Virus record (IMG/VR): IMGVR_UViG_3300028384_000991
Location: 92,564-156,563 of that record
DNA length: 64,000 bases
From: a virus
Direction: 5' to 3' (one strand)
Shown here: one piece after another, positions 3,955-60,928 of the stretch
How the letters are laid out: the number at the start of each line of letters is the position of its first letter
Position numbering within the stretch: position 1 is the stretch's first letter
Made by a program: the position numbers and the translations under genes
The notes under the pieces: generated by a model
Told to the model about the DNA's origin: nothing
The model's database searches: none
What the model saw: the letters and a program-made list of their open reading frames with translations, nothing else

Positions 3955-4146
3955 CTATTCTCCAAATGCCTTTATTGCTAACAATGGTACAAGCCATGGG
4001 TAAACTAAATGTTCTACTATTTCGTATAAAACTAAAATAGTTAACACTACTGCCCATACTTTGCTTGTTTTTGCTTTCATGCTTACATACGTAAAGATTT
4101 TTCTGTGCCATTGTCCTATCTTTTCTATTATGCCTGGTTTCTGCAT
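3955..4146 (-). CDS. Small single-pass membrane protein
   Basis: This 63-residue protein starts MQKPGIIEKIGQWHRKIF. It has one strong hydrophobic helix (VWAVVLTILVLYEIVEHLV) followed by an amphipathic, proline-containing tail. The start at 4146 has AAGGAG immediately upstream. The gene lies between the sliding clamp and DpdA, only a few bases from each. No family is recognised. Confidence 0.6.
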   Translation of the reverse strand: MQKPGIIEKIGQWHRKIFTYVSMKAKTSKVWAVVLTILVLYEIVEHLVYPWLVPLLAIKAFGE

Positions 4147-4153
4147 AAACTCC

Positions 4154-4882
4154 TTACTTGGTTTGAGCAGGTAGAATATAATTGTATTCTGCCAAACCAC
4201 TGTCGACTGTAAGTTGCATAGCACCTTGATCTGAAATGCTCATTGTAACTTTACCGTCGAGGTTTAAGATTGCCTGCACTTGGGCAACAGGCCACGCCCA
4301 TGCGTGTTTCAAACTACCTTGCACATCTGGATGGAATACAAATGAACCTGCGTGTTGTGATGCATCACCAAAACTAAACACAAGGTTGTTGTTTTCTGTT
4401 TTAACTGTAAACACAGTTTCCTCAGAGTGTGCTAAACTTTGAAACTTCATACGTTGAATAGCCGCCACACTTGGCTCAACTACTACGTCCCAACTTGCAC
4501 CTTTAAACTTAACAGTTTTAAGTTTCTCTTCAATGATTTGCTTGTTCATAAAGCGATAATCATTTTCAAAGTCACCTGCTTCGTTTTCAAAGTGAATGTG
4601 TGTTGGAACAGTTTCGCCATTTCGATCTGCTTGTTCAACAGTAATTTTTGCATTCTTTTGATACTCAGGACATTTTAAGTGTAATGCTAACTTGTCTAAG
4701 TTAGGCATACCAAATGTACCTGCAAATTCGTTTACTGCATTCTTAGTCTTAGAACTAAGAATAACTGATCTATCTTCTGCCATTGATTCAATGGTAGTAT
4801 CAGTTTCATTTGTTACCTTTACAATGTTAAGAAATCCTAACGAATGTGTATGGGCAACGATGTCTTGTAAAATGTCTTTCAT
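4154..4882 (-). CDS. 45: T4-like sliding clamp (gp45)
   Basis: This 242-residue protein is close in length to T4 gp45 (about 228). It ends in an AEYNYILPAQ segment like other T4-type clamps. It should form a trimeric ring that tethers DNA polymerase gp43 and activates late transcription, loaded by gp44/gp62. Assignment rests on overall resemblance, the C-terminal segment, and proximity to gp43 with the epimerase, glycosylase, cupin and exonuclease genes between. A strong early promoter and an AGGAG site lie upstream. I see no defect. Confidence 0.85.
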   Translation of the reverse strand: MKDILQDIVAHTHSLGFLNIVKVTNETDTTIESMAEDRSVILSSKTKNAVNEFAGTFGMPNLDKLALHLKCPEYQKNAKITVEQADRNGETVPTHIHFENEAGDFENDYRFMNKQIIEEKLKTVKFKGASWDVVVEPSVAAIQRMKFQSLAHSEETVFTVKTENNNLVFSFGDASQHAGSFVFHPDVQGSLKHAWAWPVAQVQAILNLDGKVTMSISDQGAMQLTVDSGLAEYNYILPAQTK

Positions 4883-5643
4883 GGTTGGTCTCCTATTGTT
4901 ACATTATATTTAGAAAATGCTTCTTTGTCAAGTGTTTTTTCTTGGCTAACGAAGTCAATTACATCAATTCTCGCTTTGAATCCAATACTGTTTAATTGAG
5001 TTGTATCAGCAGTATTGTCCTTGCGTTCTTGTTTTCCTCCTTCACGCATTGGAACTTTAATCCCTTTTGCTTGAATAAGTTTTGATAAATGATAAGACTT
5101 GCCTGTGCCTATATCAATTATACCTTTTAGATTACTATGCATTATCATAGTAACTGCTCTACACACATCAGCAATGTGTATAAAATCTCTTGAATGATTG
5201 TTAATATATTCAACATCATTTCTCATAAGTTTTGGAATAAACATATTAGGTCTTGCATCTGATCCATAAATGGTTGTGAATCTTAAACCAACTGCATTGT
5301 CGGGTGCTTCTTTTTCCATAATATGTTTTGTATATGCATATGGATTTCTTTCAGGTTCTTTAGCAGTGCTTGAACTTGCATAGTAGATAGGAACACTGTA
5401 AAAGTCAAATAATCTTTTAGTTGCTTCTACATTGTTTTTCCAATACTCCATAGGTGAATCAAAACTTTCTCTTACTCCGCTCTTACCAGCCAAATGCACA
5501 ACAGCATCTACTTCTGGTAAGTCACAGGTATTTAGGTCTGTACCTAATTTAAGATCAATAAATGTCATATCGTAAATACCACGCCAAAACATTTTTAATG
5601 TTGATCCAAGCATTCCTTCGCTACCTGTGAGTAAAATTTTCAT
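4879..5643 (-). CDS. NAD-dependent sugar epimerase/dehydratase (extended SDR)
   Basis: This 254-residue Rossmann-fold enzyme begins MKILLTGSEGMLGS, giving the GxxGxxG nucleotide-binding loop. It has VVHLAGKSG near residue 50 and the catalytic Y-x-x-x-K in YAYTKHIMEK near residue 105. The family interconverts nucleotide sugars such as UDP-glucose and UDP-galactose. The length is somewhat short for the family but all core motifs are present. It overlaps the gp45 start by four bases. It may supply a sugar for the phage glycosyltransferases, which is an inference from neighbourhood. Confidence 0.8.
   Translation of the reverse strand: MKILLTGSEGMLGSTLKMFWRGIYDMTFIDLKLGTDLNTCDLPEVDAVVHLAGKSGVRESFDSPMEYWKNNVEATKRLFDFYSVPIYYASSSTAKEPERNPYAYTKHIMEKEAPDNAVGLRFTTIYGSDARPNMFIPKLMRNDVEYINNHSRDFIHIADVCRAVTMIMHSNLKGIIDIGTGKSYHLSKLIQAKGIKVPMREGGKQERKDNTADTTQLNSIGFKARIDVIDFVSQEKTLDKEAFSKYNVTIGDQP
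4903..4931 (-). promoter_or_regulatory. Early sigma70-type promoter for gp45
   Basis: TTGACA (4931-4926), a 17-base spacer and TATAAT (4908-4903) form a consensus sigma70 promoter on the minus strand. It lies about 20 bases upstream of the gp45 ATG, inside the 3' end of the epimerase gene, with AGGAG between. Confidence 0.8.
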
Positions 5644-6896: not shown

Positions 6897-9566
6897 TTAT
6901 TCTCCAAAGTCAAATAAGTTGTTAAATGTATTCTTGGTCTTTGTGCTTTCTAAATCATACTTCAGCACTCCGATCAAGTTGTCAAGTTTGTTATCAATGA
7001 TTGTGCCTTCCATAGCATCACCATCAAAAGGAAGTTCCTTAAACCAGTCTGGCAAATGCATTTCGTCTACTGGATATGCAACACTTGTATACCCCATTGG
7101 ATTTTGTTTTAGTTTACAAACAATAACTTTCATACCATCTACAATCTCTTGCGAATATTTGTCACTGTTCATTTTCTTAAGAGTATTCCAATTGATACTT
7201 GCTCTTACGTGTCCAGGCATATTTGCCTTGCCTTGTTTTTCTTCAAGACGCTGATAGTGTCCAATTTTGTTTGCACGTTTAGGTGAACCTTTTTCATGTC
7301 CAGGTCGTGATTTAAATTCAGTTCTAAATTCAGTAATACGATCTAAAATACTATCTTCACTTTCAAACTGCAACACTTTAAGTAATAGTTCACTCAAGAA
7401 GTCCTGCATAAACACCGGAGTATCTGAACGTTTAAGATCAAGACCCATTGCTTTTACTTTGCCTGGCTTGCCATCAACATCTACACGTTCACCTTCGTTA
7501 TCATAAATCAATGCCGCATATCTTTTCTTTGTAATATACAGTCCGCTTTCTGCAACAATCTCTCTACCTGCCGCAATTACTTCTGAACGTGTCTTAGGAC
7601 AATGGAACGCATCAAGCATAAACTTAGGAAATGATTTGTTTGCTTCTGTACAAACTTGATCATAAAGTTTAATTACATTGTCTTTACCCCAAGGAATATT
7701 ACCTGCATCAATATCTTGTTTAAGCACAGGATATGCACTAAAATAACAAGAGTCAGTATCACCATAGATAATTGCTTTACCTACGTGATTGTATTCGCCT
7801 GTAATCACCTTGTTTACTTCTGCGGACATATGTTTTACAATTTGTCTGCCTGTGAGTGTAGTAGATTGACCAATACGTCCGTCAAAGAATCTACAACCAG
7901 GATTAAGAATAGCACCATACAAACTGTTTAGATTAATTTTCTTAACAAGTTGTCGTTTGTCCCAAAACTCTATTTCTGCTTTGTTACCTGCGTCAATGGC
8001 TTTCTTTTTCATTGCCTGCATTTCTTTACGTTCTGCATACCAACGTTTTAGCAGTCCTGGAATAACACCTTCGAACTCATATGTAAAGATTGTACCATTA
8101 GCACTCAGCATCCACGGATTGTTACTATCATATATGACTTTATAAATCTGTGCACCACTCATTACATCTGATTGGCCATTTTCCCAATCAACAGTAATAC
8201 TAACATCTCTACGTTGTTCCATTACTGCATCGTATTCCATAGTGCCGAAACGTCCTTCCCAAGCCGCCGCAAATGATTTCTTTTTCAAGTTCATTTGCTC
8301 ACCAACATATTTGTTAGTAAGTTCTGGACGTAGTTGTCCTACAACAGTTTCGGGAGCCATATTCAATGCACGAATCACTGAAGGATACAGTGAATTCAAG
8401 TCCATTGATCCAATCCATTTGTGAACCCCTACTTTCGGAAATGCAACATAAGCACCAGCCGCCGGATCACTACCAGGCTCACGTTTTACTCTATTAGGTA
8501 CTTGCATACCTCTGTGATGTGCTTCGTTGATAATTGCTTGTTCTGTAACAGCAACAGCACCCATAGTTGTTTGTAGTAGCACAGTGTTTGCATGAGCAAG
8601 TTCGTTACTAAGATCAATAAATCTTAGTTTTTTATCTAACTTATCCAACAGTGCAACGTCTTGTCTGTTATATTCAATAAACGTTCTAAAATCGTTGTTG
8701 TATAGTTGATCAAGTGTGCCTTCGTAAACAGTCTTACGTTCACCGACTTCCATCTCACCAATGGCATCTAATCGATATGTATGACGTTCTTCATATGTAT
8801 ACTTCCGATATAATTCTAAACTATCTAAATGTACACGACCTACAAGATCATAAGTTTCTTGTTGTCTGCCAAACTTTTCATATTCACGCTTTTTAGGAAA
8901 CTGATCAAACAAACAAAAACGTCTTGTATCATCTTTACTCAATACTTTTGCAACACGATTAACAGTGTACGGAATATCATAACCTTCACTGTTCCAACCA
9001 GTAATGATATCACTATCTTGAATCAAATCAAGAAATGTTTTTAACATATCTGCTTCGTCTGCAAATAAATGTGTGTTAGGAAATTCTTTTACTTGTTCTT
9101 CTGCTTGTTCCATTGTAAGTGTCTTAGGCGGAACAGCAAGTGTTACAAGTGTATCAAGCCATTGCAAGTGAACAGTAATAGCAGTAATTGGCATAAACGG
9201 ATCACTTGGATCAGCAAAGCCTCTGTCAGGATCAAAGTCTGTCTCAATATCAAAAAATGCAACATTTAGTTTAGGGGCATCGTGATTGAGATAGTTTTCA
9301 CTTAGACATTGAAAGATAGGATTTACATCACTTTCATACAGATCTTTGTTTTTATTAATTGCTAATTCTTTGCGGAAATCTTTTGTGTTTTTACAAACAA
9401 TTCTGTTTAGTGGTTCACCGTGAATACTTTTATACTTTCCACGTTGGTCACCATAATAAAAAGTGTACTTGACAGGATATTCAGTAAACGATCGTTTACC
9501 TTCTTTACGTTCTACAACACGAATAATATCTGCGTTGCGATCAAAAAATGCATCTACATAACTCAT
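6897..9566 (-). CDS. 43: T4-like family B DNA polymerase (gp43)
   Basis: This 889-residue replicative polymerase is about the size of T4 gp43 (898). The proofreading domain has Exo I FFDIETD near residue 105, an Exo II NSEGYDIPY segment and Exo III YNRQDVALL. The polymerase domain has motif A SMDLNSLYPSVI near residue 386, motif B KKINLNSLYGA near 541 and motif C YGDTDS near 598. All catalytic acids are present, so both activities should be intact. The sliding clamp lies four genes downstream and the clamp loader gp44 about 20 kb away. The gene starts after a 47-base gap with an AGGAG site. Confidence 0.95.
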   Translation of the reverse strand: MSYVDAFFDRNADIIRVVERKEGKRSFTEYPVKYTFYYGDQRGKYKSIHGEPLNRIVCKNTKDFRKELAINKNKDLYESDVNPIFQCLSENYLNHDAPKLNVAFFDIETDFDPDRGFADPSDPFMPITAITVHLQWLDTLVTLAVPPKTLTMEQAEEQVKEFPNTHLFADEADMLKTFLDLIQDSDIITGWNSEGYDIPYTVNRVAKVLSKDDTRRFCLFDQFPKKREYEKFGRQQETYDLVGRVHLDSLELYRKYTYEERHTYRLDAIGEMEVGERKTVYEGTLDQLYNNDFRTFIEYNRQDVALLDKLDKKLRFIDLSNELAHANTVLLQTTMGAVAVTEQAIINEAHHRGMQVPNRVKREPGSDPAAGAYVAFPKVGVHKWIGSMDLNSLYPSVIRALNMAPETVVGQLRPELTNKYVGEQMNLKKKSFAAAWEGRFGTMEYDAVMEQRRDVSITVDWENGQSDVMSGAQIYKVIYDSNNPWMLSANGTIFTYEFEGVIPGLLKRWYAERKEMQAMKKKAIDAGNKAEIEFWDKRQLVKKINLNSLYGAILNPGCRFFDGRIGQSTTLTGRQIVKHMSAEVNKVITGEYNHVGKAIIYGDTDSCYFSAYPVLKQDIDAGNIPWGKDNVIKLYDQVCTEANKSFPKFMLDAFHCPKTRSEVIAAGREIVAESGLYITKKRYAALIYDNEGERVDVDGKPGKVKAMGLDLKRSDTPVFMQDFLSELLLKVLQFESEDSILDRITEFRTEFKSRPGHEKGSPKRANKIGHYQRLEEKQGKANMPGHVRASINWNTLKKMNSDKYSQEIVDGMKVIVCKLKQNPMGYTSVAYPVDEMHLPDWFKELPFDGDAMEGTIIDNKLDNLIGVLKYDLESTKTKNTFNNLFDFGE

Positions 9567-14007: not shown

Positions 14008-15792
14008 CTATTTACCTTTTTTGCCGCCCTTCATGTTAGCACACCAATGGTACATTTTACCCTTTTCTCCACCATATTTACGAGCCTTAGCACGTAAACT
14101 ACTTACACTGCCTTTGCAACTTGCACCTGCTTTTTTGACTCTGCCTGGGCGTGATTTACCCTTTTTCTTACCGTCTGCAAAGTTTTCTGTTATGTTTTGT
14201 ACATAATCATCTAACATAACCACACGAGCCATTTCAGCACCTTGTGTTGCAAGTGCATCGTATCTGTGATGACCGTTTACAATTCTACCTCTACGATCAA
14301 CTACAATAGGTTCATATGTATCTTCACGTACTTTTTTGTATTGTTTTATAAGTTTTTTGAAATCTCTATCTTTTTGCACAGGCTTAATATTAGCAAGTTT
14401 CATAACACCTTGCTTGCCATCTACATCTGAACCTTTAATTTGCGGAGGTGCTTCACCACCTGTAGGTTCAGGATCGTAATTATGATCTTGGTATCCACTT
14501 ACATCACCAACTTTATAACCTAAACGTTTTAGGTTTTTAATCATATGCTTTGCTTCTTTTTCTCCGCCAAAGAAGTTAAGATAAATGTCTTGGTCACCCA
14601 TGTTAGCATCACTTGGATCTGTTTTTGCTATGTTTGCCATGTTACGACCTATTCTCATAAAGTCGTAATCAGTTGCATCTGAGTCTACTGCATAACTATT
14701 CTTTGGAAATGGTATTTCTGTACCTTCGTCTTTTTTATTAAACTTGTGTGTGAATGCATCTTTATCTCCACGTGCCGCCGCGGCTCTTCTTGCTTTTAAT
14801 TTATCTGCTACACTTGGCTCTTCTGGAGCACGTTTTTTCTTAATAGTTGCACGTTTTGGACTACGAGCAATTTGAAAACCCATAATCTCGTTTGTATCTT
14901 CTTCTGCTGGTTTGTTAAAATAATCTTTTAAACTTGAAGCAGTTCTTTCAAACTTGTGATCTTTGTGTTTAAATCCTACACCGCCTGATGCTTCCCACTT
15001 GCTTACATTTTGACCAAAGTCGTCAATTAATATGTTAGGTGTGCCGTCTGGATTTTTTGCATATGCTTGTTTGTCTGTGGTAATAATAACTTTCTTAGGT
15101 GGAAATGCTGTAAGATTTTTCTTAACCCATTCACGCTTATGAGGTTCTGCTCTATCATCATTTGCTAACGGAGCAGATAGAATATTGTATTCACCTTTAA
15201 TATCTTTTATAATACTTAAAAGTTTATCTGCATTTGCAGTAGGTTTTAGTTTTAACCAAAAGTCGTCTGTATCTCTAATCTTTTGCAGTGCTTGGTCAAT
15301 ATTTTTAATCTGTTTCCAATCACTAACACCCATCATTTTGGTCCATTCGCCAAAGAAATCTACAAGCACACCGTCCATATCTACATAAATTTCTGAATCA
15401 CTTGATAGTTCCTTACCTTTGAGTTCGTCAAGTTTAGATTCTTTTGCCATCTTAGTTGCTGTTGCATACATAACTGCTTCAGCATCTTTACCGTAACGAT
15501 CTTTAAAGTCGCTTTTGTTCTTTTTCATGCCCTTGACGTATTTTTCTTTTTTCTTTTCTTCGCCTTTGGTTAATGAACGTTCTTCAACGCTTTCAGCCAT
15601 TCCTAAGTTAAACAGTACGTTTGTGCTTGAACCTTTTACTTTTTTGCTTAGTGTAGGCGGACGTCCATCTTTATCTACTTTGTTACCGAACTTGGCCGCT
15701 TGTTTTTTAATAGCGTCAACACCAACGTCGGGTGTAGTGTTAACACCTTTTACAACTCTACCACCATTTTCTGTTAGATCTTTGAATCTCAT
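14008..15792 (-). CDS. Multidomain protein: HAD phosphatase plus ParB-like domain
   Basis: This 594-residue protein fuses several units. Residues 1-12 (MRFKDLTENGG) resemble the N-terminal signature of nearby genes. Residues around 75-120 are a Lys/Glu helix seen again in many virion-type proteins. Residues about 135-280 are a HAD/5'-nucleotidase domain: YVDMDGVLVDFF (nucleophile Asp), ILSAP and ILIDDFGQN. Residues about 480-535 resemble a ParB/sulfiredoxin-type nuclease domain with IVVDRRGRIVNGHHRYDAL. The C-terminus is a basic Cys-containing tail. Such fusions suggest a packaged protein that acts on nucleic acids after infection. The reactions are not shown. Confidence 0.65.
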   Translation of the reverse strand: MRFKDLTENGGRVVKGVNTTPDVGVDAIKKQAAKFGNKVDKDGRPPTLSKKVKGSSTNVLFNLGMAESVEERSLTKGEEKKKEKYVKGMKKNKSDFKDRYGKDAEAVMYATATKMAKESKLDELKGKELSSDSEIYVDMDGVLVDFFGEWTKMMGVSDWKQIKNIDQALQKIRDTDDFWLKLKPTANADKLLSIIKDIKGEYNILSAPLANDDRAEPHKREWVKKNLTAFPPKKVIITTDKQAYAKNPDGTPNILIDDFGQNVSKWEASGGVGFKHKDHKFERTASSLKDYFNKPAEEDTNEIMGFQIARSPKRATIKKKRAPEEPSVADKLKARRAAAARGDKDAFTHKFNKKDEGTEIPFPKNSYAVDSDATDYDFMRIGRNMANIAKTDPSDANMGDQDIYLNFFGGEKEAKHMIKNLKRLGYKVGDVSGYQDHNYDPEPTGGEAPPQIKGSDVDGKQGVMKLANIKPVQKDRDFKKLIKQYKKVREDTYEPIVVDRRGRIVNGHHRYDALATQGAEMARVVMLDDYVQNITENFADGKKKGKSRPGRVKKAGASCKGSVSSLRAKARKYGGEKGKMYHWCANMKGGKKGK

Positions 15793-18239: not shown

Positions 18240-20492
18240 CTACGCTGTAACAGTTTCTGCTTGTTTGGTTGCAATAAGTTTGATCTTATTATCTTCAGTA
18301 GCAATATGTAAATGACCGCCGTTTTTAAGTTCACCAAACAACAATATCTTACTTAGATCACGTTTGATTTCTTTGTCAATTGTACGCTGTAAAGGTCTTG
18401 CACCCATCTTTTTGTCAAAGCCAACATCTACAAGATAGTCAATAGTTTCATCTGTAATATCAACTGTAACATTCTTTTCCGTAAGCATATCACGTAACTC
18501 TACAAGGAACTTACCAACAATCTTAATCATTGTGTTCTTTTCAAGTTTGCCAAATGCAATTACACCGTCAAGTCTATTACGGAATTCTGGTGCAAAGAAT
18601 TTTTTAAGTTCAGTATCTTCATACTCTACTTCAAGATCTTCATTGAAGCCGATGGCGTTTTTCTCTGCTTGTTCTGCACCTAAGTTTGTTGTTAGGATTA
18701 GTACAGCATTCTTCGCATCGGCTTCTTTCCCGTTGCTTCCGGTAACTTTTCCGTTATCCATTAATTGTAAAAGGATCTGCGATACGTCTGGATGTGCTTT
18801 TTCAACCTCATCAAGTAGTAATACACAGTTCGGATGCTCTTGCAATTTTGTAATCAATAAGCCTGCATTGTCCTCAAAGCCTACATAGCCTGGAGGTGAA
18901 CCGATAAGTTTAGCAACTGAATGCTTCTCTTGATATTCACTCATATCAAAACGCACAAGTTCTACACTTAGTTCATTTGCTAACTGTTTTGCTGTTTCTG
19001 TTTTACCAACGCCTGTTGGACCCATAAACACAAAACTACCTACAGGTTTGTTATCAGGCTTTAATCCTGCTTGTGCAACAAGAATTTTCTCTACAATTTC
19101 GTCAATTGCTTTATCTTGTCCATACACTTGCTTCTTAAGGTTGTCTTCAAGGTGTGCAAGGTTACTTGATTCTTTTTGTGATACCTGTTCTGGTGGAAGT
19201 TTAATTGCTTTTGCAAGTTCAAATTCAATTTCTTCTTTGCCTACAACTTTGTCACCTTCAACTGTTTTTAGATTAAATCTTGAACAAGCAAGATCAATTA
19301 AGTCGATCGCTTTATCAGGTAGTTTTTTATCAGCCATATACTTAACACTGAGTTTAATAGCAGTATCAATACCTTCTTCTGTAATCGTTGTAGTATGATA
19401 ATCTTCGTAGTATTTTTTAATACCTTGTAGAATAGACTTTGTCGTTGCTTTATCTGGTTCGCTTACACTAATACGTTGGAAACGTCTCATTAACGCACGA
19501 TCTTTTTCAAAGTACTTGCGATATTCTTCCCAAGTAGTTGAAGCAACAACTTTGATATCACCTTTACCAAGAGCAGGCTTTAGCATATTAGCAAGATCAT
19601 TTGCTCCACCACTGCCTCCTGCGGCACCTGCACCGTTCATCATATGTGCTTCGTCGATGAATACAATAGTTTTGCCTTGCTTTTTAATAGCATTCATTAC
19701 AAGTTTAAAACGTTCTTCAAAGTCACCTCTGTACTTTGATCCTGCCAACATTGCACTAATGTCAAGATTGTAAACTTTATATTCCTGTAAGAATTCAGGG
19801 ACTGCTTTATTAACAATATTATATGCAAGTCCTTCTGCAATAGCAGTTTTACCTACACCAGGATCGCCAACAAGCAATACATTGTTCTTTGCTCTACGTC
19901 CTAAAGAAAGTGCAATACTTTCAAGTTCTTCTGTGCGACCAATTACTGGATCAATTTTACTTTTTTCTACTTCTTTGTTTAGATCTTTTGAAAATTCACG
20001 TAGTGCTTTCTGTTCTACAGTACGCATTTCTTCATCTTCGTAAACTGCTTCTAACTCGTTGTTTAGATAATCAGCAAACTGTTCTTTTGTTAATCCGGAC
20101 TTTTGAATATGATAATATGACCAAGACTTTTTCTCATTCATAATACTTAAAAACACATCTGTGATTTCAATATGGTGTCTACCACTAAACAGTACTTGTG
20201 TAAATGCTCTATTTAAAACACGTTCAACTGTTGCAGTCTTTTTAGGTTTAAATTTCTTAGTGTTCTCTGCAGGAAGTGTAATATCTTCTAAATCTTTTTT
20301 AAGATAGTTTTCGATATTCTTTTTGATAAACTCTGGATCAGCACCAGCACCTTCAACAATTTTAGAAAACTTTTCACTGCACAGCATAGCAAATAGTAAA
20401 TGCTCAAGGGTCACGTACTCGTGATTCAGTTTCTTTGCATCACTTACTGACTTGTCAAATACTGCTTGTAAATCGTCGCTTGGTTCAACCAT
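18240..20492 (-). CDS. clpA: ClpA-like AAA+ unfoldase
   Basis: This 750-residue protein is the length of bacterial ClpA. It has an N-terminal Clp repeat domain (MVEPSDDLQAVF, HEYVTLEHLLFAML). Module one has LLVGDPGVGKTA near residue 203 and IVFIDEAHM. Module two has FMGPTGVGKTETAK near residue 490 and VLLLDEVEKAH. A NAIGFNE segment at about residues 611-617 lies where ClpA carries its IGL ClpP-binding loop, so it probably docks on a ClpP peptidase. No ClpP gene is in the window, implying use of host ClpP. It overlaps the deformylase gene by eight bases and forms an operon with it and DnaJ. Confidence 0.9.
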   Translation of the reverse strand: MVEPSDDLQAVFDKSVSDAKKLNHEYVTLEHLLFAMLCSEKFSKIVEGAGADPEFIKKNIENYLKKDLEDITLPAENTKKFKPKKTATVERVLNRAFTQVLFSGRHHIEITDVFLSIMNEKKSWSYYHIQKSGLTKEQFADYLNNELEAVYEDEEMRTVEQKALREFSKDLNKEVEKSKIDPVIGRTEELESIALSLGRRAKNNVLLVGDPGVGKTAIAEGLAYNIVNKAVPEFLQEYKVYNLDISAMLAGSKYRGDFEERFKLVMNAIKKQGKTIVFIDEAHMMNGAGAAGGSGGANDLANMLKPALGKGDIKVVASTTWEEYRKYFEKDRALMRRFQRISVSEPDKATTKSILQGIKKYYEDYHTTTITEEGIDTAIKLSVKYMADKKLPDKAIDLIDLACSRFNLKTVEGDKVVGKEEIEFELAKAIKLPPEQVSQKESSNLAHLEDNLKKQVYGQDKAIDEIVEKILVAQAGLKPDNKPVGSFVFMGPTGVGKTETAKQLANELSVELVRFDMSEYQEKHSVAKLIGSPPGYVGFEDNAGLLITKLQEHPNCVLLLDEVEKAHPDVSQILLQLMDNGKVTGSNGKEADAKNAVLILTTNLGAEQAEKNAIGFNEDLEVEYEDTELKKFFAPEFRNRLDGVIAFGKLEKNTMIKIVGKFLVELRDMLTEKNVTVDITDETIDYLVDVGFDKKMGARPLQRTIDKEIKRDLSKILLFGELKNGGHLHIATEDNKIKLIATKQAETVTA

Positions 20493-31841: not shown

Positions 31842-31849
31842 TATTTATC
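31842..31849 (-). promoter_or_regulatory. Late promoter box GATAAATA
   Basis: It lies 22 bases upstream of the ATG at 31819, overlapping the end of the DnaE-like fragment. Confidence 0.65.
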
Positions 31850-32366
31850 TAAGGAACTCACGCCAATCCAGGTCAAACTGAATTGGATTAATTCTGTGTA
31901 CCCCAATCAAAAATAATACAAAACTTGATACACTTGATCCTCTACCTACTCCCCAAAGTATGTTATTTTCACGCATATAGTCAACCAAGTAAACCATATA
32001 GCGTAACAAGTTCAACATATCTCTTTTTTCAAATTCAATGTATTCTTCGTCTAATCTTTTTACTTGTTCTTCGTTAGTACATTTTGATTCTAAAAAACTA
32101 TACACATCTAAGTTTTTATATGCTTCTGGCATAAACCATTCGCTTTGACAAACATTATCAAATTGTGTTTTATCAACATCAATGGGGATATATTGTTTTA
32201 ATGCTTGTGTACCAAATTCTTCTGCGTGTTTGTTGAACTGTTTAATTTCATCATTCGGATCGCACAGAACTACATGACACTTATCAATATGTCCTGTATA
32301 GATCATATCAATCAGGTTCTTATTAGAAAAGATGGGTATACCGTTAGAATCTGTTTTTAAAAGCAT
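31845..32366 (-). CDS. DnaE (Pol III alpha) palm-domain fragment
   Basis: This 173-residue protein ends with LWGVGRGSSVSSFVLFLIG and NPIQFDLDWREFLR, which resemble the VGxGRGSAAGSLVAY-to-ERFLN region of bacterial DNA polymerase III alpha. It has no catalytic-Asp palm motif beyond this, and it ends just after the segment, so it is not a polymerase by itself. It might be a remnant or a decoy binding host replication proteins. Its ATG is six bases after a TAAAAT box. Confidence 0.6.
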   Translation of the reverse strand: MLLKTDSNGIPIFSNKNLIDMIYTGHIDKCHVVLCDPNDEIKQFNKHAEEFGTQALKQYIPIDVDKTQFDNVCQSEWFMPEAYKNLDVYSFLESKCTNEEQVKRLDEEYIEFEKRDMLNLLRYMVYLVDYMRENNILWGVGRGSSVSSFVLFLIGVHRINPIQFDLDWREFLR

Positions 32367-35824: not shown

Positions 35825-36514
35825 TTAAAGAGGATTTGTAATGGTACCAACGTCGATGTTTACTTCTGCAATGCTACTATCGTCCTGTAAGCCAGGCTGT
35901 GAAATAGTGCCTAAATTAACATCAGTTGCGCCTGCTAAGAATTCAATAATACTTGAAGTATCACCTGTGATTGTTGAAAAGTTGAAACCGTAAATATCAC
36001 GAACATCTATATTGTGTACTAAACTTTCAATGTTTCTTACATTTCTTATAGTATTGCCTTGTCCGTCTAATGTTCCACCTAATTGTGGTGTAGCGTCTGT
36101 AGAAAGTTCTGTAACAGAATTAATTGTAATACCACTTGCACCGTTGGTTTGTGTACTTGCATTAGTACCGCCGGAAATAGTAAATGTATCACCTTCTGCA
36201 AGTGTAATGTTTCCAGCGTCAGTTGCTACTGTTAATTGCTGTAATCCGCCTACACTTGAAATAATTACACCGTCGGCATTTGAAGATACTGTAACATTGC
36301 CGCCAGCAACAATTTTTTTGAAACGTAAATCAAAACCTACTTTTTCTTTGAATACACCTTCCCCTGTGGTTCCAAGGTTTGATGCTGTAGTTTGCTCTGG
36401 GTTACGATTATCAAGTTCTGTAAAGTTATTATTAACTTTAACAAATGCTTCTCTTAGATCGTCACCCGTCCCGTCATTTGCTACACCACCGATATTTACT
36501 AAACTTATTGCCAT
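35825..36514 (-). CDS. Fibre/baseplate protein with NDGTGD N-terminal motif
   Basis: This 229-residue protein starts MAISLVNIGGVANDGTGDDL, followed by REAFVKVNNNFTELD. The same motif opens two other large structural genes nearby. The rest is beta-rich repeats. The ATG at 36514 lies five bases after GATAAATA. An AAGGA at the stop of the upstream gene could also serve as a distant ribosome site. Confidence 0.6.
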   Translation of the reverse strand: MAISLVNIGGVANDGTGDDLREAFVKVNNNFTELDNRNPEQTTASNLGTTGEGVFKEKVGFDLRFKKIVAGGNVTVSSNADGVIISSVGGLQQLTVATDAGNITLAEGDTFTISGGTNASTQTNGASGITINSVTELSTDATPQLGGTLDGQGNTIRNVRNIESLVHNIDVRDIYGFNFSTITGDTSSIIEFLAGATDVNLGTISQPGLQDDSSIAEVNIDVGTITNPL

Positions 36515-36519
36515 ACTAA

Positions 36520-36527
36520 TATTTATC
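36520..36527 (-). promoter_or_regulatory. Late box five bases from a start codon
   Basis: GATAAATA then TTAGT then ATG. It partly overlaps an AAGGA that may be a ribosome-binding site, so leaderless initiation is less certain here. Confidence 0.5.
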
Positions 36528-36528
36528 C

Positions 36529-38514
36529 TTATGTAACTGTTATGGTATTCCACATACTTAAATGATTAGCACATTGATACCCATATGATCCTGCACCATC
36601 TATTGCTGTTTCCCAAACAGTTGCGCCACCCTGTGTTGTTATTCCTGTAACCTGATTTGCATCTCCTGTCCCTTGTGTTGTTTTGATACGCAATGGATGA
36701 AGTGCAGAAGTTATGGAATGAACGTAAAATCTTACTATATCTCCGTTATTGAATGCTAAAGTAGGCTGTGCAATATTTTCACCAATTTCACCATTTCTAT
36801 CACTGCCAGTTAAGCGATATTCATTACCGTTATTAAAAAAGTAGATATCAAAAGTTTTACTACCCTCTACTCTTTCTCTGTGTTCGAATACTGTGTCGCC
36901 ATGTAAGGGAAAATATGCTCGTCTATTAGTACCACCCATTACACTGTCTGTATCAGTATAATCATTAGTCAAACTCGTGGTATGTAGATCTTCTTTGGCA
37001 TTTCCAATAACCCAATTTTTAACTTGTGCAGGAGTCCAGTCTGGATGTGCTTGTAACAAACAAGCCATCATACCACACATCTGTGGAGCCGCCATTGAAG
37101 TGCCAGAATATTTTGCTTGACGCCAAGCACTATCTGCAAAATACGTTGATCCTTGATTGTTAGGCTGGGCACTAATTACCTGTCTACCTACAGTGTATAT
37201 TTCTACTGCTGGTCCTGTATCACTGAAGTTGGCTTTCCTACTCCAACTAACCAGACTGCCTTGCGATGTATCAGCCGAGTCAATTGCACCTACTTCAAAT
37301 CCTTCATTTATATCGCCCGTGCTAACGCCTGTGTTTGTTGTATTAAATGTATCGCCCCCTTCAAATGTTGATGGAGATTTTCCTCTGTGATAGTATTGAT
37401 AGTATGTTGTTCCACCTAAATTAAAAGTCAAATAATTGTTGTAATCTGTACCGCCAGGATGATCTATCTTCATATAGTTGTTACCAGCCGCAGTACACAC
37501 ATGAATTCCATTGTTGATTAACTGTTCTACGTCAGCATCAATTGATGCATACTTTCTACCAAACAAATAATATCCTGCACCTATATCTGGTCTGGACGAT
37601 CCAACAACACCATACTGTGTGAGATTTGATCTCACGGTTTCTGTATGAGCAACTCCTCTATGGTTACCACCAGTTACATCATAACCTGTAGAACTTAATA
37701 CAACTTGGTTTGGTGTAACATTTGTTCTTAGAAACCAACTGTATTGGAAACTCATGTTAACCACTGTTGGACGACCAGCATTTGCTCCAGATTTATTGTT
37801 GTGCCATCCAATTAAACAATCAATCATATTGTTCCAAGTGATGTTGTTTCCTGAATTAGAATAAAGAGTGATGTTGTAAATTCTTGCATTCTTGGCCCAG
37901 CCAAAGTTTTTGCCTGCCATTGTGCCTATACAGTGTGTGCCGTGACCATTCACATCTGTGTAGAAGTTTGTGGGTTGTGTGCCTGATACACCTGATTCTG
38001 TAAACCAGTTAATTTGTTGCAGTCTTGAGTTTCCGTCTGCATCTTCCCATTCTGGATGACCCACTTGTATTCCTGTATCAACAATTACCATGTCAACACC
38101 TGTCCCATCAAGTGCATATTTGTAATCTCCCATGCCTGGATCTGATGTAAGACTTTGATATGGGTTATATTCAGATGTGTGTAGTTTTAGTCCCCAGTTA
38201 GCCTGGGCACCACTTGAAGTGCTTGTTCTATTAAAGTCACCAACAAAAGTTGCAGTAGGTGTAGGTTCAGGAATTGTAGTTGGATCTGTTACAGCCATTA
38301 CTCTTGGATCATTTCTAAGAGCAGTTGCTTCTTCGTCTGATAGATGATAGTGTGTGTTTCTATTATTGATAGCACGTTCGTTACAACATTCACATTCTCT
38401 ATCAGGAATGATAGAACTGTCTACAGTTGCGTCTGCTGTTGTGTCATTGATTAGATCGTTGTGTACTTCACGCCAATCAACACCTTTATTTACGGTTACA
38501 ATATATTCTTTCAT
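36529..38514 (-). CDS. Subtilisin-like (S8) protease with cupredoxin-like C-terminus
   Basis: This 661-residue protease has an N-terminal propeptide-like segment, then the catalytic triad: VIVDTGIQ (Asp near residue 144), NGHGTHCIG (His near 194) and YSGTSMAAP (Ser near 474), with the oxyanion Asn in TAAGNNY. The last 100 residues resemble amicyanin/plastocyanin. H606 in LHPLRI and C648, H651 and M654 in YQCANHLSMW reproduce the four type-1 copper ligands. It lies within the fibre region and may process virion or host surface proteins. Copper binding is inferred from motif only. Confidence 0.8.
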   Translation of the reverse strand: MKEYIVTVNKGVDWREVHNDLINDTTADATVDSSIIPDRECECCNERAINNRNTHYHLSDEEATALRNDPRVMAVTDPTTIPEPTPTATFVGDFNRTSTSSGAQANWGLKLHTSEYNPYQSLTSDPGMGDYKYALDGTGVDMVIVDTGIQVGHPEWEDADGNSRLQQINWFTESGVSGTQPTNFYTDVNGHGTHCIGTMAGKNFGWAKNARIYNITLYSNSGNNITWNNMIDCLIGWHNNKSGANAGRPTVVNMSFQYSWFLRTNVTPNQVVLSSTGYDVTGGNHRGVAHTETVRSNLTQYGVVGSSRPDIGAGYYLFGRKYASIDADVEQLINNGIHVCTAAGNNYMKIDHPGGTDYNNYLTFNLGGTTYYQYYHRGKSPSTFEGGDTFNTTNTGVSTGDINEGFEVGAIDSADTSQGSLVSWSRKANFSDTGPAVEIYTVGRQVISAQPNNQGSTYFADSAWRQAKYSGTSMAAPQMCGMMACLLQAHPDWTPAQVKNWVIGNAKEDLHTTSLTNDYTDTDSVMGGTNRRAYFPLHGDTVFEHRERVEGSKTFDIYFFNNGNEYRLTGSDRNGEIGENIAQPTLAFNNGDIVRFYVHSITSALHPLRIKTTQGTGDANQVTGITTQGGATVWETAIDGAGSYGYQCANHLSMWNTITVT

Positions 38515-38520
38515 CGTACA

Positions 38521-40392
38521 TTACGAGACAATGGCTCTATCACTGACTCTTCTCCAATTTGTTCCATCATAGAAAGCCGGTATAGCACCACCTGTTTCGT
38601 CTGTACAAAATACCATAGCACCTACAGATGACACCAAACTACCTAATTCAGTTACTGTTTTATTAACAAGTTTCATAGGAGCATCGTTAATAATTTCACT
38701 TGTAGGATCAAGTGTAATAGTTGTTGGTGATGAAATAGTATATGTTCCTGTTAGAGTAGAAGGTGCTTGAATTGTTTCTACTTCAATGTTAGTTACTGTT
38801 AGTGTATCCGTTGTGCTGTTGAATGTAAAGTTAGCATCACCAGCAAATGCACCAGAACTGTTAAACTGTACCTGCGTATCAGCACCACCAGGTGTACCAC
38901 TTCCACCACCGCCAGATGCTGTAAATGTAATTGTTTTGTTAGTAGCCGATGTTGTAATCGTCATACCAGTACCAGCAATAAGTTCTACACTGTCTAATGC
39001 ACTCTCAGCACCAATTGTACTTTGTCCTGCGACAGTAAACTGTGCAAAAATATTTTGATCTTCGTTTGGTGAAGTGTTTGTAATTGTAAGTGTATCAGCA
39101 ACAATCTGTGTGCTAATACCACCACTACCGATAATGTTTAATGTATCAGTTGCTGTGTCAGCAGTTGTATTTCCTGTTTCACCTGAGAATGTTGTAAACA
39201 CGTTTTGCGGAGCAGTTGCAGTATCTACATATGCTTTGATAGCACTCTGTGTTACAAGTCTTGTTCCGCTGTTTGCAGTAAATGCACTGTCGTTATCAAT
39301 ACGGTTGACAGTAACAGCATCACCAGCAAAGTTTAAACTTGTTGTAGAAGTTAGTGTTCCTCCACTTAGTGTACTTGTAAAAGTAAAGTCACCAGCACCA
39401 TCTGTCTTTAAAAACTGATTAGCATCACCGTCTGTGATACCAATGTCTGTCAATGTTGTTGGAGAATCTGTAATGCCATATCCTGCCAATGTGGTTGGTG
39501 TATTTTGTACATCTGAAAAGTTTGGTTCGTTAGTTTGATTAACCCAAGTAATTCCATCGTATCCTAAAATTTGTCCGCCTGTTGGATTTGAAACAGAAAG
39601 ATCTGATAAGTCGTTTAATGCATAACTTGGTTTGTTAGTGACGTTATTCCAATCCAAATAGTGTGTACCGTCAAATCCGTCAAGTGTGTCTGCGTTTAGT
39701 CCACTACCACCTGATGCAATATCATCTCCAGGTACCCATCTCAAACCATTCCATTTTAAAACTTGTCCTGTTGATGGTGGAGTAGTTTGTGTATCAACAT
39801 CGATCATATCACTGATGTCATTTGGAATAATTGGTTTGTTGCTTAGATCGTTATAACTTCCGGAAGTTGCTACAGTTGCTAAACTTGGTCTACCAGTTAT
39901 TTCTGAGTATGCTATTGCAGAGTTTACCCAAGCAGTTCCGTTGTATTTTAAATATTGAGAATTTGATGGAGCAGTAAGAGTAACATCAGTTAAACCGTCA
40001 AGTGCAGTAGCACCGCCACCCCCGCCACCTGAGCCAACACCAGTTGCTTCAATAGTTAGTGTGTTTGCTTGATCATTGTATGTAAGATTAATACCAACAC
40101 CAGCAACAAGTAAATTTGCTACACGATCGTCAACACGCTCGTTTGAAAAATAAAGTTTTGTACCTTCAACAATATCGTCTGTATCTTCTGGAATAGTTGG
40201 GGTACCAATTAGGTCAGCATATTGACCACTGAAAGGATTATACGGTACTCCCGCGATTGTTAAACTTGTTGCGGCAATATTACCTGCGCCTACAATACCT
40301 GAGCCAGTTAAGTTAAGGTTATCACCGATGGGTAACTCTTTTAACTTATTACCGTCATCTGTATCTACAATTAGTGGTATTCTATCTGCCAT
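38521..40392 (-). CDS. Tail fibre protein
   Basis: This 623-residue beta-rich fibre has Gly-rich linkers (GVGSGGGGGGATAL) and repeated elements such as YLKYNGTAWVN, VLKWNGLRWVPG and GYDGITWVN. It probably binds host receptors. A canonical late box TATAAATA lies 18 bases before the ATG with AGGA. Confidence 0.65.
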   Translation of the reverse strand: MADRIPLIVDTDDGNKLKELPIGDNLNLTGSGIVGAGNIAATSLTIAGVPYNPFSGQYADLIGTPTIPEDTDDIVEGTKLYFSNERVDDRVANLLVAGVGINLTYNDQANTLTIEATGVGSGGGGGGATALDGLTDVTLTAPSNSQYLKYNGTAWVNSAIAYSEITGRPSLATVATSGSYNDLSNKPIIPNDISDMIDVDTQTTPPSTGQVLKWNGLRWVPGDDIASGGSGLNADTLDGFDGTHYLDWNNVTNKPSYALNDLSDLSVSNPTGGQILGYDGITWVNQTNEPNFSDVQNTPTTLAGYGITDSPTTLTDIGITDGDANQFLKTDGAGDFTFTSTLSGGTLTSTTSLNFAGDAVTVNRIDNDSAFTANSGTRLVTQSAIKAYVDTATAPQNVFTTFSGETGNTTADTATDTLNIIGSGGISTQIVADTLTITNTSPNEDQNIFAQFTVAGQSTIGAESALDSVELIAGTGMTITTSATNKTITFTASGGGGSGTPGGADTQVQFNSSGAFAGDANFTFNSTTDTLTVTNIEVETIQAPSTLTGTYTISSPTTITLDPTSEIINDAPMKLVNKTVTELGSLVSSVGAMVFCTDETGGAIPAFYDGTNWRRVSDRAIVS

Positions 40393-53337: not shown

Positions 53338-56300
53338 ATGCCTACAGCAATACACGACATATTTAGATTTATTAAACTTTATTCACCCGATGGAAGCACT
53401 CTTGAGCAGACTCTTGAGGCAGATGCTATCAATGATACCTTACAAATGCGTAGAGGTGATGGTGTAAGTTGGAGTGTACCAACAACATCACCAGGAGGCA
53501 CTATTGCTGTAACTGTAGGATTTCATACTGGTACAGGACAAGCAACAGGTGCATTTTATCTTGACGGAACAGAACGTAACACTATAACGCTGGTTAAAGG
53601 ACAAACATATATCTTTGATCAAAGCGATGCATCGAATGCAGGATATGGTGGCTACAACCACCCTATGACATTTAGTAATACCGATGACGGTGCAGTAAGT
53701 GGTGCAATCAGTGGCGAAGAATATGCAACAGGAGTAACATATCTTATTGATGATAATCCTGTATCAAAGACAATTTATAGACAAGATTTTACAACCACAA
53801 CTAATAGAAAAATTAAAATTGAGTTGAATGACTCTGCTCCGGGTACACTTTATTATTGTTCACATGATAACATTGATCAAGGTGGTCAAATACTAACAAC
53901 TGCCGGCAATGATCTTATGATGATCAATGTGGACTACAGTTTAGATGTTCCTCCGGGTACAACAAACATAGAATTAACAGATGTTAATGCAGGAACTACA
54001 CACGTAGAATTATCCTCAGCAGGTGGCATCCAATTAACAAGAAAGAATGCAAACGAAATAGAAATCAGTTCTTTTGCTGTAGCAGAAATTGATACACTGC
54101 ATACTGTAACAACAAGAAACGCAATCACAACCAATAAACTCTATATGGAAGATATTGAAGTTGGCGATGTTACAAGTGCAACACAAGACGGCTTTGTATC
54201 TCCGAGTTCAGAATTCTTAGGAACTGGTAGGGTTGATGATGCTCTAAGACTTGCTGTTGATCAAAGAGAAATCACAACAAACACAGTAACGCAAACATTT
54301 ACATTTAATAGCCAAGCGGCACCAGGTGTGCTGAACTATACAATTGGTTATCAATTAGATAGCGGAACATCAGCAACTTCTGTAACAGCAAGTATTCAAA
54401 GATACAACACTGTAACAACTATCTGGGAAACATTAGATACAGTAAGTGGTATAGGCGGGATTCCATATGAAGTTTCCAATATGTACAACGAAGCAAGTGC
54501 TTCAGGCGGACAGTATAGAGTTGTGTTTAACATTGCAGGTAACACAGGAACTATTACTCTTGAACTTCAAGCATATTACGAAATTTTAGAAATTACAAAT
54601 AATCCTGTGCTTAGAACTGAAAGTGCAGTAGGTACATTAAGAACACGTGACCTTGCACCATTAGGTGTAAACGATATCGGTAGAGGCAGTGAGCCATATG
54701 ACAATGTATATGCTAATACATTCCATGGACACTTGGTAGGAACATTCGACGGTGATCTAACAGGATCGTTATACACAGATGATTCAACGCTATTAGTTGA
54801 TGCTACCAGCGGTACAATATATGGTTCTACTCTTGCAGATACTACATCAGTTATTGGCAACGTTGAGTTTGCAGACAATATAAAACTGATGATCGGTAAT
54901 TCAGATGATTTACAAATTTGGCACGACGGTCTTAACAGTTATATTAGAGATAATGGCACTGGAAAACTACGTGTTCAAACAAATCATTATCAATTATTAA
55001 ATGCGGGTGATAACAGTCCATTTATAGAAGCCACAAGCCTTGGCACTATTATCTATCATAATGGTTCAGATATAATTACAACCCAAACTACTGGGGCAGA
55101 TCTAAGAGGTAACTTAACGTTAACTGTACCATCAGGCACTGTAACAGCACCTGGAGGATTTTTTGGTGACTTAACTGGTTCAGTATTCGGACCAGACTCA
55201 ACTACTGTAATTGATAACAATGGTGTTGTTACAGGTGAAGTAAACAACGCAAACGTCGGCACAGGTAATCTTGATGCAGGAAATATCACAGACGGTATAA
55301 TGACAATTACAAATGGTGTAGGTACAGCATTTACAGAAATTGAATCTACACTGTTTGACGGTGTGCTTGAAGGTGATGTCTACGGCAATGATGGAACAAG
55401 TCAACTTGTAGACGCAACAGCAAATCAAATTGTTGGCGAAGTTAATGCAGATACAAACAAAACAGGTGCATTAACTATTGCATCTGATACAAGTGTTACA
55501 GTAAACGGTACTGGTGTAATTGCATTTAACAGTGGTGTGGGTGTTGATGCAAATGGTAAACTTGTAAACAGTTCTAATGCGGCACAACCATTTACTATTG
55601 GCAGTCCCGTTACTATTGAAAAAGAATTTAGAGCATTTCCAGGTGCTCAAGAAAAGCAGTTATATACAAATGTAACAACTGGAACTTATGCAATTGACAC
55701 CAGCGACACACAAAACGTTTATTGGAACCAACCAAGTGGTGCTCTTGTTGCTAACTTTACTAATTTAAACACTGATACACAAAGACAAAGACGTGTAAGA
55801 ATACACATCAACCAAGGCGGCACACCATTTATTCCTGACATTGAAATTAACGGTGTAACTCAAAGTGCTACTAATTTAGGTAATGGTGAAATTACAGGTG
55901 TTGCAAATCAATTAACAATTTTAGAATATACATTCTACAGAACACATACTAATGTTTGGGAAATCTATGTTCAGCAGATAGATGGAAGTAATCAATTTGA
56001 AACAAATATTACAGATCGAAATGTAACTGTAAACTTACAAGACAATCAAGCAGATGCTTTAAGTTTTGATACAGTAGGTAAAGCAGATATTCTAAAAATT
56101 ATTACAACAGATAGTGCAGAAGGTATTGAAAGTAGCGGTAATATCAAAGGAAATACACTGCAAGTTAATGATACAACCAGTGCTGTGACACAGTTAGTTG
56201 ATAAGACTACAGGTGTTACTGCTGACTTTGCAATGGGTAATATTGTACTAAACAATTCAAATCTTGTTGCAGGTGCAACTGCTGTGTTTACACTTACGTC

Positions 56301-56475
56301 TTCGTTTATCAATGCTAATAGTATGGTTATGGTAAATCATACCAGTGGAGGAACTATAGGATCGTATATGTTTAATACAACTCCAGCGGCTGGTACTTGT
56401 CAAATCCACGTAACAAATATATCAGGCGGACCGTTAGGTGAAGCCATTACTATTAAGTTTCTTGTTATTGGTTAA
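53338..56475 (+). CDS. Large tail fibre protein on the plus strand
   Basis: This 1045-residue protein contains a cupredoxin-like region near the N-terminus, with H108 (NHPMTF) and C174/H176 (YYCSH), but lacking the Met ligand. Fibre repeats follow: DLTGSLYTDDSTLLVD near residue 473, NSDDLQIWHDGLNSYIRD near 520, and GDLTGSVFGPDS near 610. The same repeat unit is found on the other strand at 40.4 kb. It is probably a receptor-binding fibre. Its orientation opposite to its neighbours is notable. Confidence 0.7.
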   Translation: MPTAIHDIFRFIKLYSPDGSTLEQTLEADAINDTLQMRRGDGVSWSVPTTSPGGTIAVTVGFHTGTGQATGAFYLDGTERNTITLVKGQTYIFDQSDASNAGYGGYNHPMTFSNTDDGAVSGAISGEEYATGVTYLIDDNPVSKTIYRQDFTTTTNRKIKIELNDSAPGTLYYCSHDNIDQGGQILTTAGNDLMMINVDYSLDVPPGTTNIELTDVNAGTTHVELSSAGGIQLTRKNANEIEISSFAVAEIDTLHTVTTRNAITTNKLYMEDIEVGDVTSATQDGFVSPSSEFLGTGRVDDALRLAVDQREITTNTVTQTFTFNSQAAPGVLNYTIGYQLDSGTSATSVTASIQRYNTVTTIWETLDTVSGIGGIPYEVSNMYNEASASGGQYRVVFNIAGNTGTITLELQAYYEILEITNNPVLRTESAVGTLRTRDLAPLGVNDIGRGSEPYDNVYANTFHGHLVGTFDGDLTGSLYTDDSTLLVDATSGTIYGSTLADTTSVIGNVEFADNIKLMIGNSDDLQIWHDGLNSYIRDNGTGKLRVQTNHYQLLNAGDNSPFIEATSLGTIIYHNGSDIITTQTTGADLRGNLTLTVPSGTVTAPGGFFGDLTGSVFGPDSTTVIDNNGVVTGEVNNANVGTGNLDAGNITDGIMTITNGVGTAFTEIESTLFDGVLEGDVYGNDGTSQLVDATANQIVGEVNADTNKTGALTIASDTSVTVNGTGVIAFNSGVGVDANGKLVNSSNAAQPFTIGSPVTIEKEFRAFPGAQEKQLYTNVTTGTYAIDTSDTQNVYWNQPSGALVANFTNLNTDTQRQRRVRIHINQGGTPFIPDIEINGVTQSATNLGNGEITGVANQLTILEYTFYRTHTNVWEIYVQQIDGSNQFETNITDRNVTVNLQDNQADALSFDTVGKADILKIITTDSAEGIESSGNIKGNTLQVNDTTSAVTQLVDKTTGVTADFAMGNIVLNNSNLVAGATAVFTLTSSFINANSMVMVNHTSGGTIGSYMFNTTPAAGTCQIHVTNISGGPLGEAITIKFLVIG

Positions 56476-59741: not shown

Positions 59742-59853
59742 TTTTTTTATGCCTCCGCATTACTTGAGTCTTACCATCAGCAATATAGTATCCTGTTATT
59801 TCCCATTCATCTTTTTTCTTTTTAACAGTCTTTGCCTTTTTCTTTTTATGCAT
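59710..59853 (-). CDS. Small Lys-rich protein
   Basis: This 47-residue protein starts MHKKKKAKTVKKKKDEWEI, then has YYIADGKTQVMRRHKKSG. The ATG at 59853 with AAAGAGGA upstream is favoured over a start within the oxygenase gene. The strong basic run suggests nucleic-acid binding. Confidence 0.5.
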   Translation of the reverse strand: MHKKKKAKTVKKKKDEWEITGYYIADGKTQVMRRHKKSGRETKSYRM

Positions 59854-60928
59854 AGTCCTCTTTCTTAGGTACAAGGAACTCTTTAATGCCAATAAGATTT
59901 ACATAGGCTGAAATTGTGTCAATGTACCTATCAATATATGGTTGTTGCCTATATGGCATCCAAGGTTTACCTTCTTGGAGTCCTGTATAATCATATTGGA
60001 ATCTATAACACAATCTACCGTCGGTACTTCCTTGCCTACGGTGCTGAGTAATACTGTTATCAAACAAGCACAAGTCACCGTCTTGCTGATACCAATGATC
60101 GTAAATGTATTCATCTACACAAAGATCATTTCTAATTTTTTCAAGTAACTTATCTGCTTCGCCCTGCGACATACCTTTAATACCTGTAACAGTATTAAAA
60201 CTATAGTGTAATCCTGTATGTCCGCCGGGTGATGTAATTACCATTGGAATTTCTTCGTTCTCATGTGGCGCCATATTCTTGTACATTACATTGTCTTGAA
60301 CATCACGTAACCCTGGATTAATTTTTCCCGGAGTAAAGTTATGAATAGCAATCATTTCATCTAACTCACTACGGAAACTCTCCGAAACGCTTTCGTAGTA
60401 ATCTACAGTAGTTAAAAAGCCTGTAGAACTTGCTGTTGTTCCTTTGAATCCTAACAGTGCAACTCCTGGAGCAAAAGCAATGTTACCGCTTTCATTTGAG
60501 TGCCATAGTAACTCACCTTCAGCAAACATACCTAATGGTTTACCATCAGGAGTTTTTTCTCCCGACACTTTAATAATGTCTGCTTGTTCGTCATTGTTCC
60601 ATTCTCTAACACGAATGAATTCTTCAAGACACATACGATCTTCTGGAGACCACGTAGGATCACTCAGTGCCGTTTGTGCTCTACCATCCCAATGCGGGTA
60701 ACGTTCTCTAAAAATAGCATAGGTGCTAAATCTATCTCTACCCCACTTTTTCATAAAGCGAGTATAATGCGATACATCTTTAAAGTTGGTATTTCTAATA
60801 ATAGTAACTAATTCTTTAAGATGGATCTTGCCAATCTCATACCATTCTTCATCTGTAATGTTATCGAAATCTACATCATCGATAAACACTCCAAATCTAC
60901 CACAGCCTGGAATTTTAGATATCTTCAA
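59846..60928 (-). CDS. TauD/TfdA-like 2OG-Fe(II) oxygenase
   Basis: This 360-residue protein has LLWHSNESGNIAF near residue 141, where TauD has WHxD, and FDNSITQHRRQGSTDGR near 300 with the second His and the oxoglutarate Arg. The usual Asp is Asn (HSN), so the iron site may be altered. The family hydroxylates small molecules such as taurine or amino acids. A short membrane peptide overlaps its start. Confidence 0.65.
   Translation of the reverse strand: MKISKIPGCGRFGVFIDDVDFDNITDEEWYEIGKIHLKELVTIIRNTNFKDVSHYTRFMKKWGRDRFSTYAIFRERYPHWDGRAQTALSDPTWSPEDRMCLEEFIRVREWNNDEQADIIKVSGEKTPDGKPLGMFAEGELLWHSNESGNIAFAPGVALLGFKGTTASSTGFLTTVDYYESVSESFRSELDEMIAIHNFTPGKINPGLRDVQDNVMYKNMAPHENEEIPMVITSPGGHTGLHYSFNTVTGIKGMSQGEADKLLEKIRNDLCVDEYIYDHWYQQDGDLCLFDNSITQHRRQGSTDGRLCYRFQYDYTGLQEGKPWMPYRQQPYIDRYIDTISAYVNLIGIKEFLVPKKEDYA

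Follow-up and report, generated by a model that had tools for sequence, protein, structure and literature searches.

A subtilisin-like protease gene in a phage tail region encodes a C-terminal cupredoxin-like domain that recurs in marine T4-like phages

The window analysed here is a stretch of 64,000 nucleotides from an IMG/VR virus record (IMGVR_UViG_3300028384_000991, positions 92,564 to 156,563); a megablast search against phages gave no match. The ORF under study lies on the minus strand at 36529-38514, begins with ATG and encodes a product of 661 residues, exactly as given in the preliminary description. The product consists of a prodomain-like segment, an S8 protease domain and a C-terminal cupredoxin domain. 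Its residues 2-660 match positions 6-695 of the 696 positions of PHROG 9158 (phrog_9158, E 3e-78), a family labelled 'unknown function' that spans both the protease and the C-terminal module. The gene had been assigned to a tail-fibre region, and its neighbours, which match PHROG 677 and tail-fibre families, bear this out. The upstream neighbour (38521-40392, minus strand) is a gp10-like baseplate wedge/tail-fibre connector (PHROG 677, E 5e-13), the downstream neighbour (35825-36553, minus strand) has a gp10/wedge-like N-terminus (PHROG 677, E 2e-7; Pfam T4_gp9_10_N at 0.002, below the cut-off), and a tail-fibre protein of 2221 residues is also encoded nearby. The GTG start listed for the downstream neighbour overlaps the protease gene; its true start is probably an ATG near 36514.

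The source record is 156,563 bases long. A cyanophage origin is unsupported: the polymerase is closest to those of the large rhizobial phages Sinorhizobium phage Phosso and Agrobacterium phage Atu_ph07 (50.6 and 47%), and no Photo_RC (photosystem reaction-centre) gene was found in the record, which may be a fragment. On these two grounds the host is probably not a cyanobacterium. A Pfam search for Gp23 gave no match here, nor did it in the controls.

Several other genes of the window were noted. A family B polymerase (6897-9566) is accompanied by a minus-strand ORF of 173 residues (31845-32366) that matches part of bacterial DNA polymerase III alpha (PF07733, 8e-12) and, over nearly its full length, PHROG 11127 'DNA polymerase'. 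The minus strand also encodes a ClpA/ClpB-like AAA+ protein at 18240-20492 (PHROG 4871 'ATP-dependent protease', 3e-242; Clp_N, AAA_2 and ClpB_D2-small) and, at 14008-15792, a protein of 594 residues in which a deoxyribonucleotidase-like region (131-283) is joined to a ParB-like one (~490-530). At 53338-56475, an ORF of 1045 residues stands on the plus strand amid mostly minus-strand genes; it has no Pfam match, and its end matches PHROG 18251, labelled unknown function. The minus-strand ORF at 59846-60928 belongs to the taurine catabolism dioxygenase family (PHROG 24590, 4e-126), and a gene of this name appears among those of P-HM1 and P-HM2 as well (PMC3037559).

The S8 (subtilisin-like) protease domain occupies residues 105-531 (36922-38202, minus strand; Pfam PF00082, 4e-26). 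The preliminary description had proposed a complete S8 triad. The catalytic residues D146 (38077-38079), H191 (37942-37944) and S473 (37096-37098), as well as the oxyanion-hole residue N345 (37480-37482), all on the minus strand, are invariant in an alignment of 26 sequences. Of 116 long S8 matches, 113 have the complete D/H/N/S set, and the alignments of the remaining three are gapped at one of these columns. With its triad and oxyanion Asn, the domain is a predicted protease. Its closest solved relatives are proteinase K-like enzymes, and the catalytic domain, triad and oxyanion Asn are common to the window protein and the proteinase K/subtilisin family. The S8 region, however, extends over ~425 residues with long insertions, compared with ~280 in proteinase K, and unlike proteinase K and subtilisin the window protein has an added C-terminal cupredoxin.

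The I9 propeptide of subtilisins has the order strand-helix-strand-strand-helix-strand. In the full-length model of the window protein, whose confidence is low near the linker and in parts of the cupredoxin, residues 2-76 (38287-38511, minus strand) form a beta-alpha-beta-beta-alpha-beta arrangement, and pro-subtilisin E (3whi) aligns with the model over 540 columns. We assign this segment only tentatively as an I9-like propeptide because I9 was not called in a Pfam search of the window protein.

The C-terminal domain comprises residues ~554-661 (36532-36855, minus strand). Pfam gave no match to these residues, either alone or within the window protein, and a scan with the window domain alone as query returned no matches. 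With a profile of seven homologues, amicyanin was the best PDB match (7e-5). A profile of 41 homologues matched 47 PDB sequences at E<=0.01 (best 1.3e-5), all of them cupredoxins or cupredoxin-domain proteins, including plastocyanin, amicyanin, pseudoazurin, rusticyanin, auracyanin, azurin and nitrite reductase. An AlphaFold2 model of the domain built from 41 sequences reached a pLDDT of 90.2 and a pTM of 0.81, and its Foldseek neighbours were rusticyanin, pseudoazurin, plastocyanin, nitrite reductase and laccases (E from 1e-4), with modest TM scores to solved cupredoxins of ~0.5 and an rmsd of ~6 A. Among predicted viral structures the best named neighbours were S8 proteins of Synechococcus phages ACG-2014h and ACG-2014e (TM 0.82-0.86), followed by cyanophage tail fibres and gp10-like connectors. 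Profile and model thus agree on a likeness in fold to amicyanin, pseudoazurin, plastocyanin and rusticyanin, weak as the similarity is, and support the cupredoxin fold that had been suggested from the sequence, a predicted Greek-key beta-sandwich related to plastocyanin and azurin.

In the type 1 copper sites of the cupredoxin fold, the classical copper set is Cys-His-His-Met. The candidate copper ligands of the window domain are H606 (36697-36699), C648 (36571-36573), H651 (36562-36564) and M654 (36553-36555), all encoded on the minus strand. These four residues had been named in the preliminary description, and in the translation they stand where it put them, with the same C-x2-H-x2-M spacing. 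C648, H651 and M654 are aligned with the Cys, His and Met of cupredoxins, and the loop that holds them has the spacing of amicyanin and pseudoazurin. H606 is followed by Pro (HP motif) and is shifted by ~2 residues relative to the plastocyanin His in the profile HMM alignment. The four residues are conserved in homologues as well: the full H/C/H/M set is present in 124 of 129 distinct phage domains, and in 41 domains less than 60% identical the four ligands rank within the eight most conserved columns. All four ligands are absent from three of the 129 domains, namely one copy in contig L050 and the separate protease-adjoining ORFs of L064 and L071. The other two domains that do not score H/C/H/M are L201 (51-142), in which the first His is missing and the alignment ends before the loop, and L049, which is aligned over its first part only. 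A motif arising by chance is ruled out by the column conservation together with the profile matches to cupredoxins only (PDB, E<=0.01). The joint retention and joint loss of the four ligands argue for a metal site, although the metal is evidently not needed in every copy, since a few ligand-less domains persist.

The domain might instead be a metal-free structural beta-sandwich whose ligand residues owe their conservation to something else, core packing for example. Such a role would agree with the existence of ligand-less copies, with the frequent use of the cupredoxin fold in tail proteins and with a C-terminal slot that is optional and can hold other sequence, as in L180 and L191, where an acidic beta-rich tail takes the place of the cupredoxin. 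It would not predict, however, that three copies lose all four ligands together, and the four ligands, which come from two parts of the domain, all rank within its eight most conserved columns. The conserved ligands therefore argue against a fold kept for its shape alone, and we consider a purely structural role unlikely.

The domain shares its fold and ligands with blue copper proteins, which could also point to a classical electron carrier. Amicyanin, plastocyanin and their like are free electron carriers, whereas the window domain belongs to a phage protease; Pfam recognised no further redox domain in the protein, and the tail setting offers no obvious partner. Electron transfer is thus very improbable as the function of the domain.

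The fusion is found in many contigs and in isolate genomes, so a single odd fusion or an assembly artefact is ruled out. A tblastn search of isolate phages found it in Synechococcus phages S-H9-1, S-CAM4 and ACG-2014e/i/j and in single-cell marine viruses. The S8 proteins of the named Synechococcus phages have the same order of N-terminal segment, S8 domain and C-terminal cupredoxin and are encoded near tail genes; the window protein is only ~26-28% identical to them. The closest relative found, in IMG/VR contig L012, is also fused (81% best-segment identity). A protease insertion of ~300 residues in this relative (L012:7246-8202, with EVIEHVFHTLHMHG) does not occur in the window protein and has no Pfam, PHROG or PDB match. 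Relative to the protease, the module can be N-terminal, inserted or C-terminal, in one or several copies. P-HM1 has one cupredoxin on either side of the protease, and the module is inserted within the protease in Marine virus AG-345-F15 (L007) and in contigs L086 and L093. The cupredoxin profile gave no match in the Atu_ph07 protease, in the S8 protein of S-SCSM1 or in the neighbours tested.

To avoid picking only fused proteins, the protease domains alone were used as queries. Fusions then accounted for 36 of 47 complete proteins in the S-CAM4 clade and for 3 of 35 in the L014 clade. At 12 loci of the L014 clade, with near-identical loci among them, the module is encoded by an ORF close by, in nine cases 9-32 nt downstream. 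A tree built from 81 proteases shows at least 14 changes in the presence of the module; L013 in this set is truncated by the end of its contig, and fused proteins are over-represented, the module having been part of some queries. The window module is most like those of three other protease fusions, L201, L081 and L082, and the L081 protease sits elsewhere in the protease tree than the window protease. Two such similar modules on distant proteases suggest that modules have probably been exchanged between proteases. Judged from the sequences, the fusion recurs across marine T4-like phages and has repeatedly been gained or lost, and proteases without it often have the domain encoded by an adjacent gene.

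The module also occurs without the protease, in gp10-like connectors, tail fibres and spikes of phages. A scan of bacterial genomes found it, with H/C/H/M, in secreted-looking, lipoprotein-like and RTX-like proteins (PS1/OCS116 clade, Acidobacteria and others), none of which had an S8 domain. Unlike the window protein, these bacterial proteins have one or two modules and no protease, and they stand in other contexts. In the marine alphaproteobacteria PS1, OCS116 and Rhodobiaceae, RTX-like proteins of ~430 residues carry two tandem cupredoxin modules (L103, L104, L107, L109 and others, ~4100-5450).

The distribution of the module bears on whether it gates the protease, which would be restrained in the copper-free state in the cytoplasm and switched on by copper loading or oxidation outside the cell. 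The two domains are coupled repeatedly, by fusion or by gene adjacency, the ligands are retained, and some check is required on a subtilisin that is produced in the cytoplasm, all of which would suit a gated protease. On the other hand, the module is missing from 11 of 47 and 32 of 35 complete S8 relatives in the two clades, its position relative to the protease varies, and it is present where there is no protease at all. Its occurrence in many tail proteins and its variable placement therefore argue against a dedicated protease switch, which we regard as unlikely, and an accessory module seems to us the better reading than a redox switch specific to the protease. The retention of the ligands across tail proteins of many phages might further mean that the domain binds or carries metal for uptake at the cell surface and so lures host receptors, or that the metal it binds is not copper. 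Since Cys-His-His-Met is the classical copper set of this fold, another metal is disfavoured, and we hold these two options together to be quite improbable.

The reading that we prefer, to which we give about an even chance, is that of a subtilisin-like protease associated with the tail or baseplate and bearing at its C-terminus an exchangeable cupredoxin module that binds metal; we infer the copper loading, surface role, substrate and presence in the virion of this protein. The protein would be made and assembled in the host cytoplasm, where its N-terminal segment probably aids folding of the protease and restrains it. Free copper is scarce in the bacterial cytoplasm; for this reason, we suppose that the cupredoxin domain folds copper-free there and acquires copper after the virion has left the cell. 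The copper-loaded domain would then act as a metal-stabilised beta-sandwich by which the protease is displayed or anchored at the baseplate. It would also touch the host surface, a contact suggested by the gene context, and the S8 domain may cut a surface protein during adsorption. A bolder version, in which marine T4-like phage tails carry copper-loaded blue-copper modules and copper or redox gating confines proteolysis to the outside of the producing cell, seems to us rather unlikely. With regard to the virion, the S-SCSM1 record annotates an S8 relative as 'baseplate wedge subunit (virion protein)'. Mass spectrometry identified 45 proteins in the S-SCSM1 virion, and the main text of that study does not allow the S8 relative to be confirmed among them (PMC9602691).

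A literature search on cupredoxin or plastocyanin-like domains in cyanophages, phage tails, tail fibres and virions found nothing relevant, with most subscription journals lying outside its reach. In the passages matched by a keyword search of a paper that covers P-HM1 and P-HM2, an S8 peptidase of these phages is mentioned and a copper-protein domain is not (PMC3037559). The family of the window protein is widespread among phages and has no named function; what is noteworthy here is a cupredoxin with conserved ligands in tail-region proteins. Many virion proteins that are now listed as hypothetical contain this module, for which cupredoxin can serve as a label. Even if it binds no copper, tail gene clusters have repeatedly joined this beta-sandwich to a protease or kept the two side by side. 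If the module binds copper, ocean phages would have metalloprotein tails unlike any described in the literature searched, and the effect of seawater copper or surface redox on adsorption would become testable.
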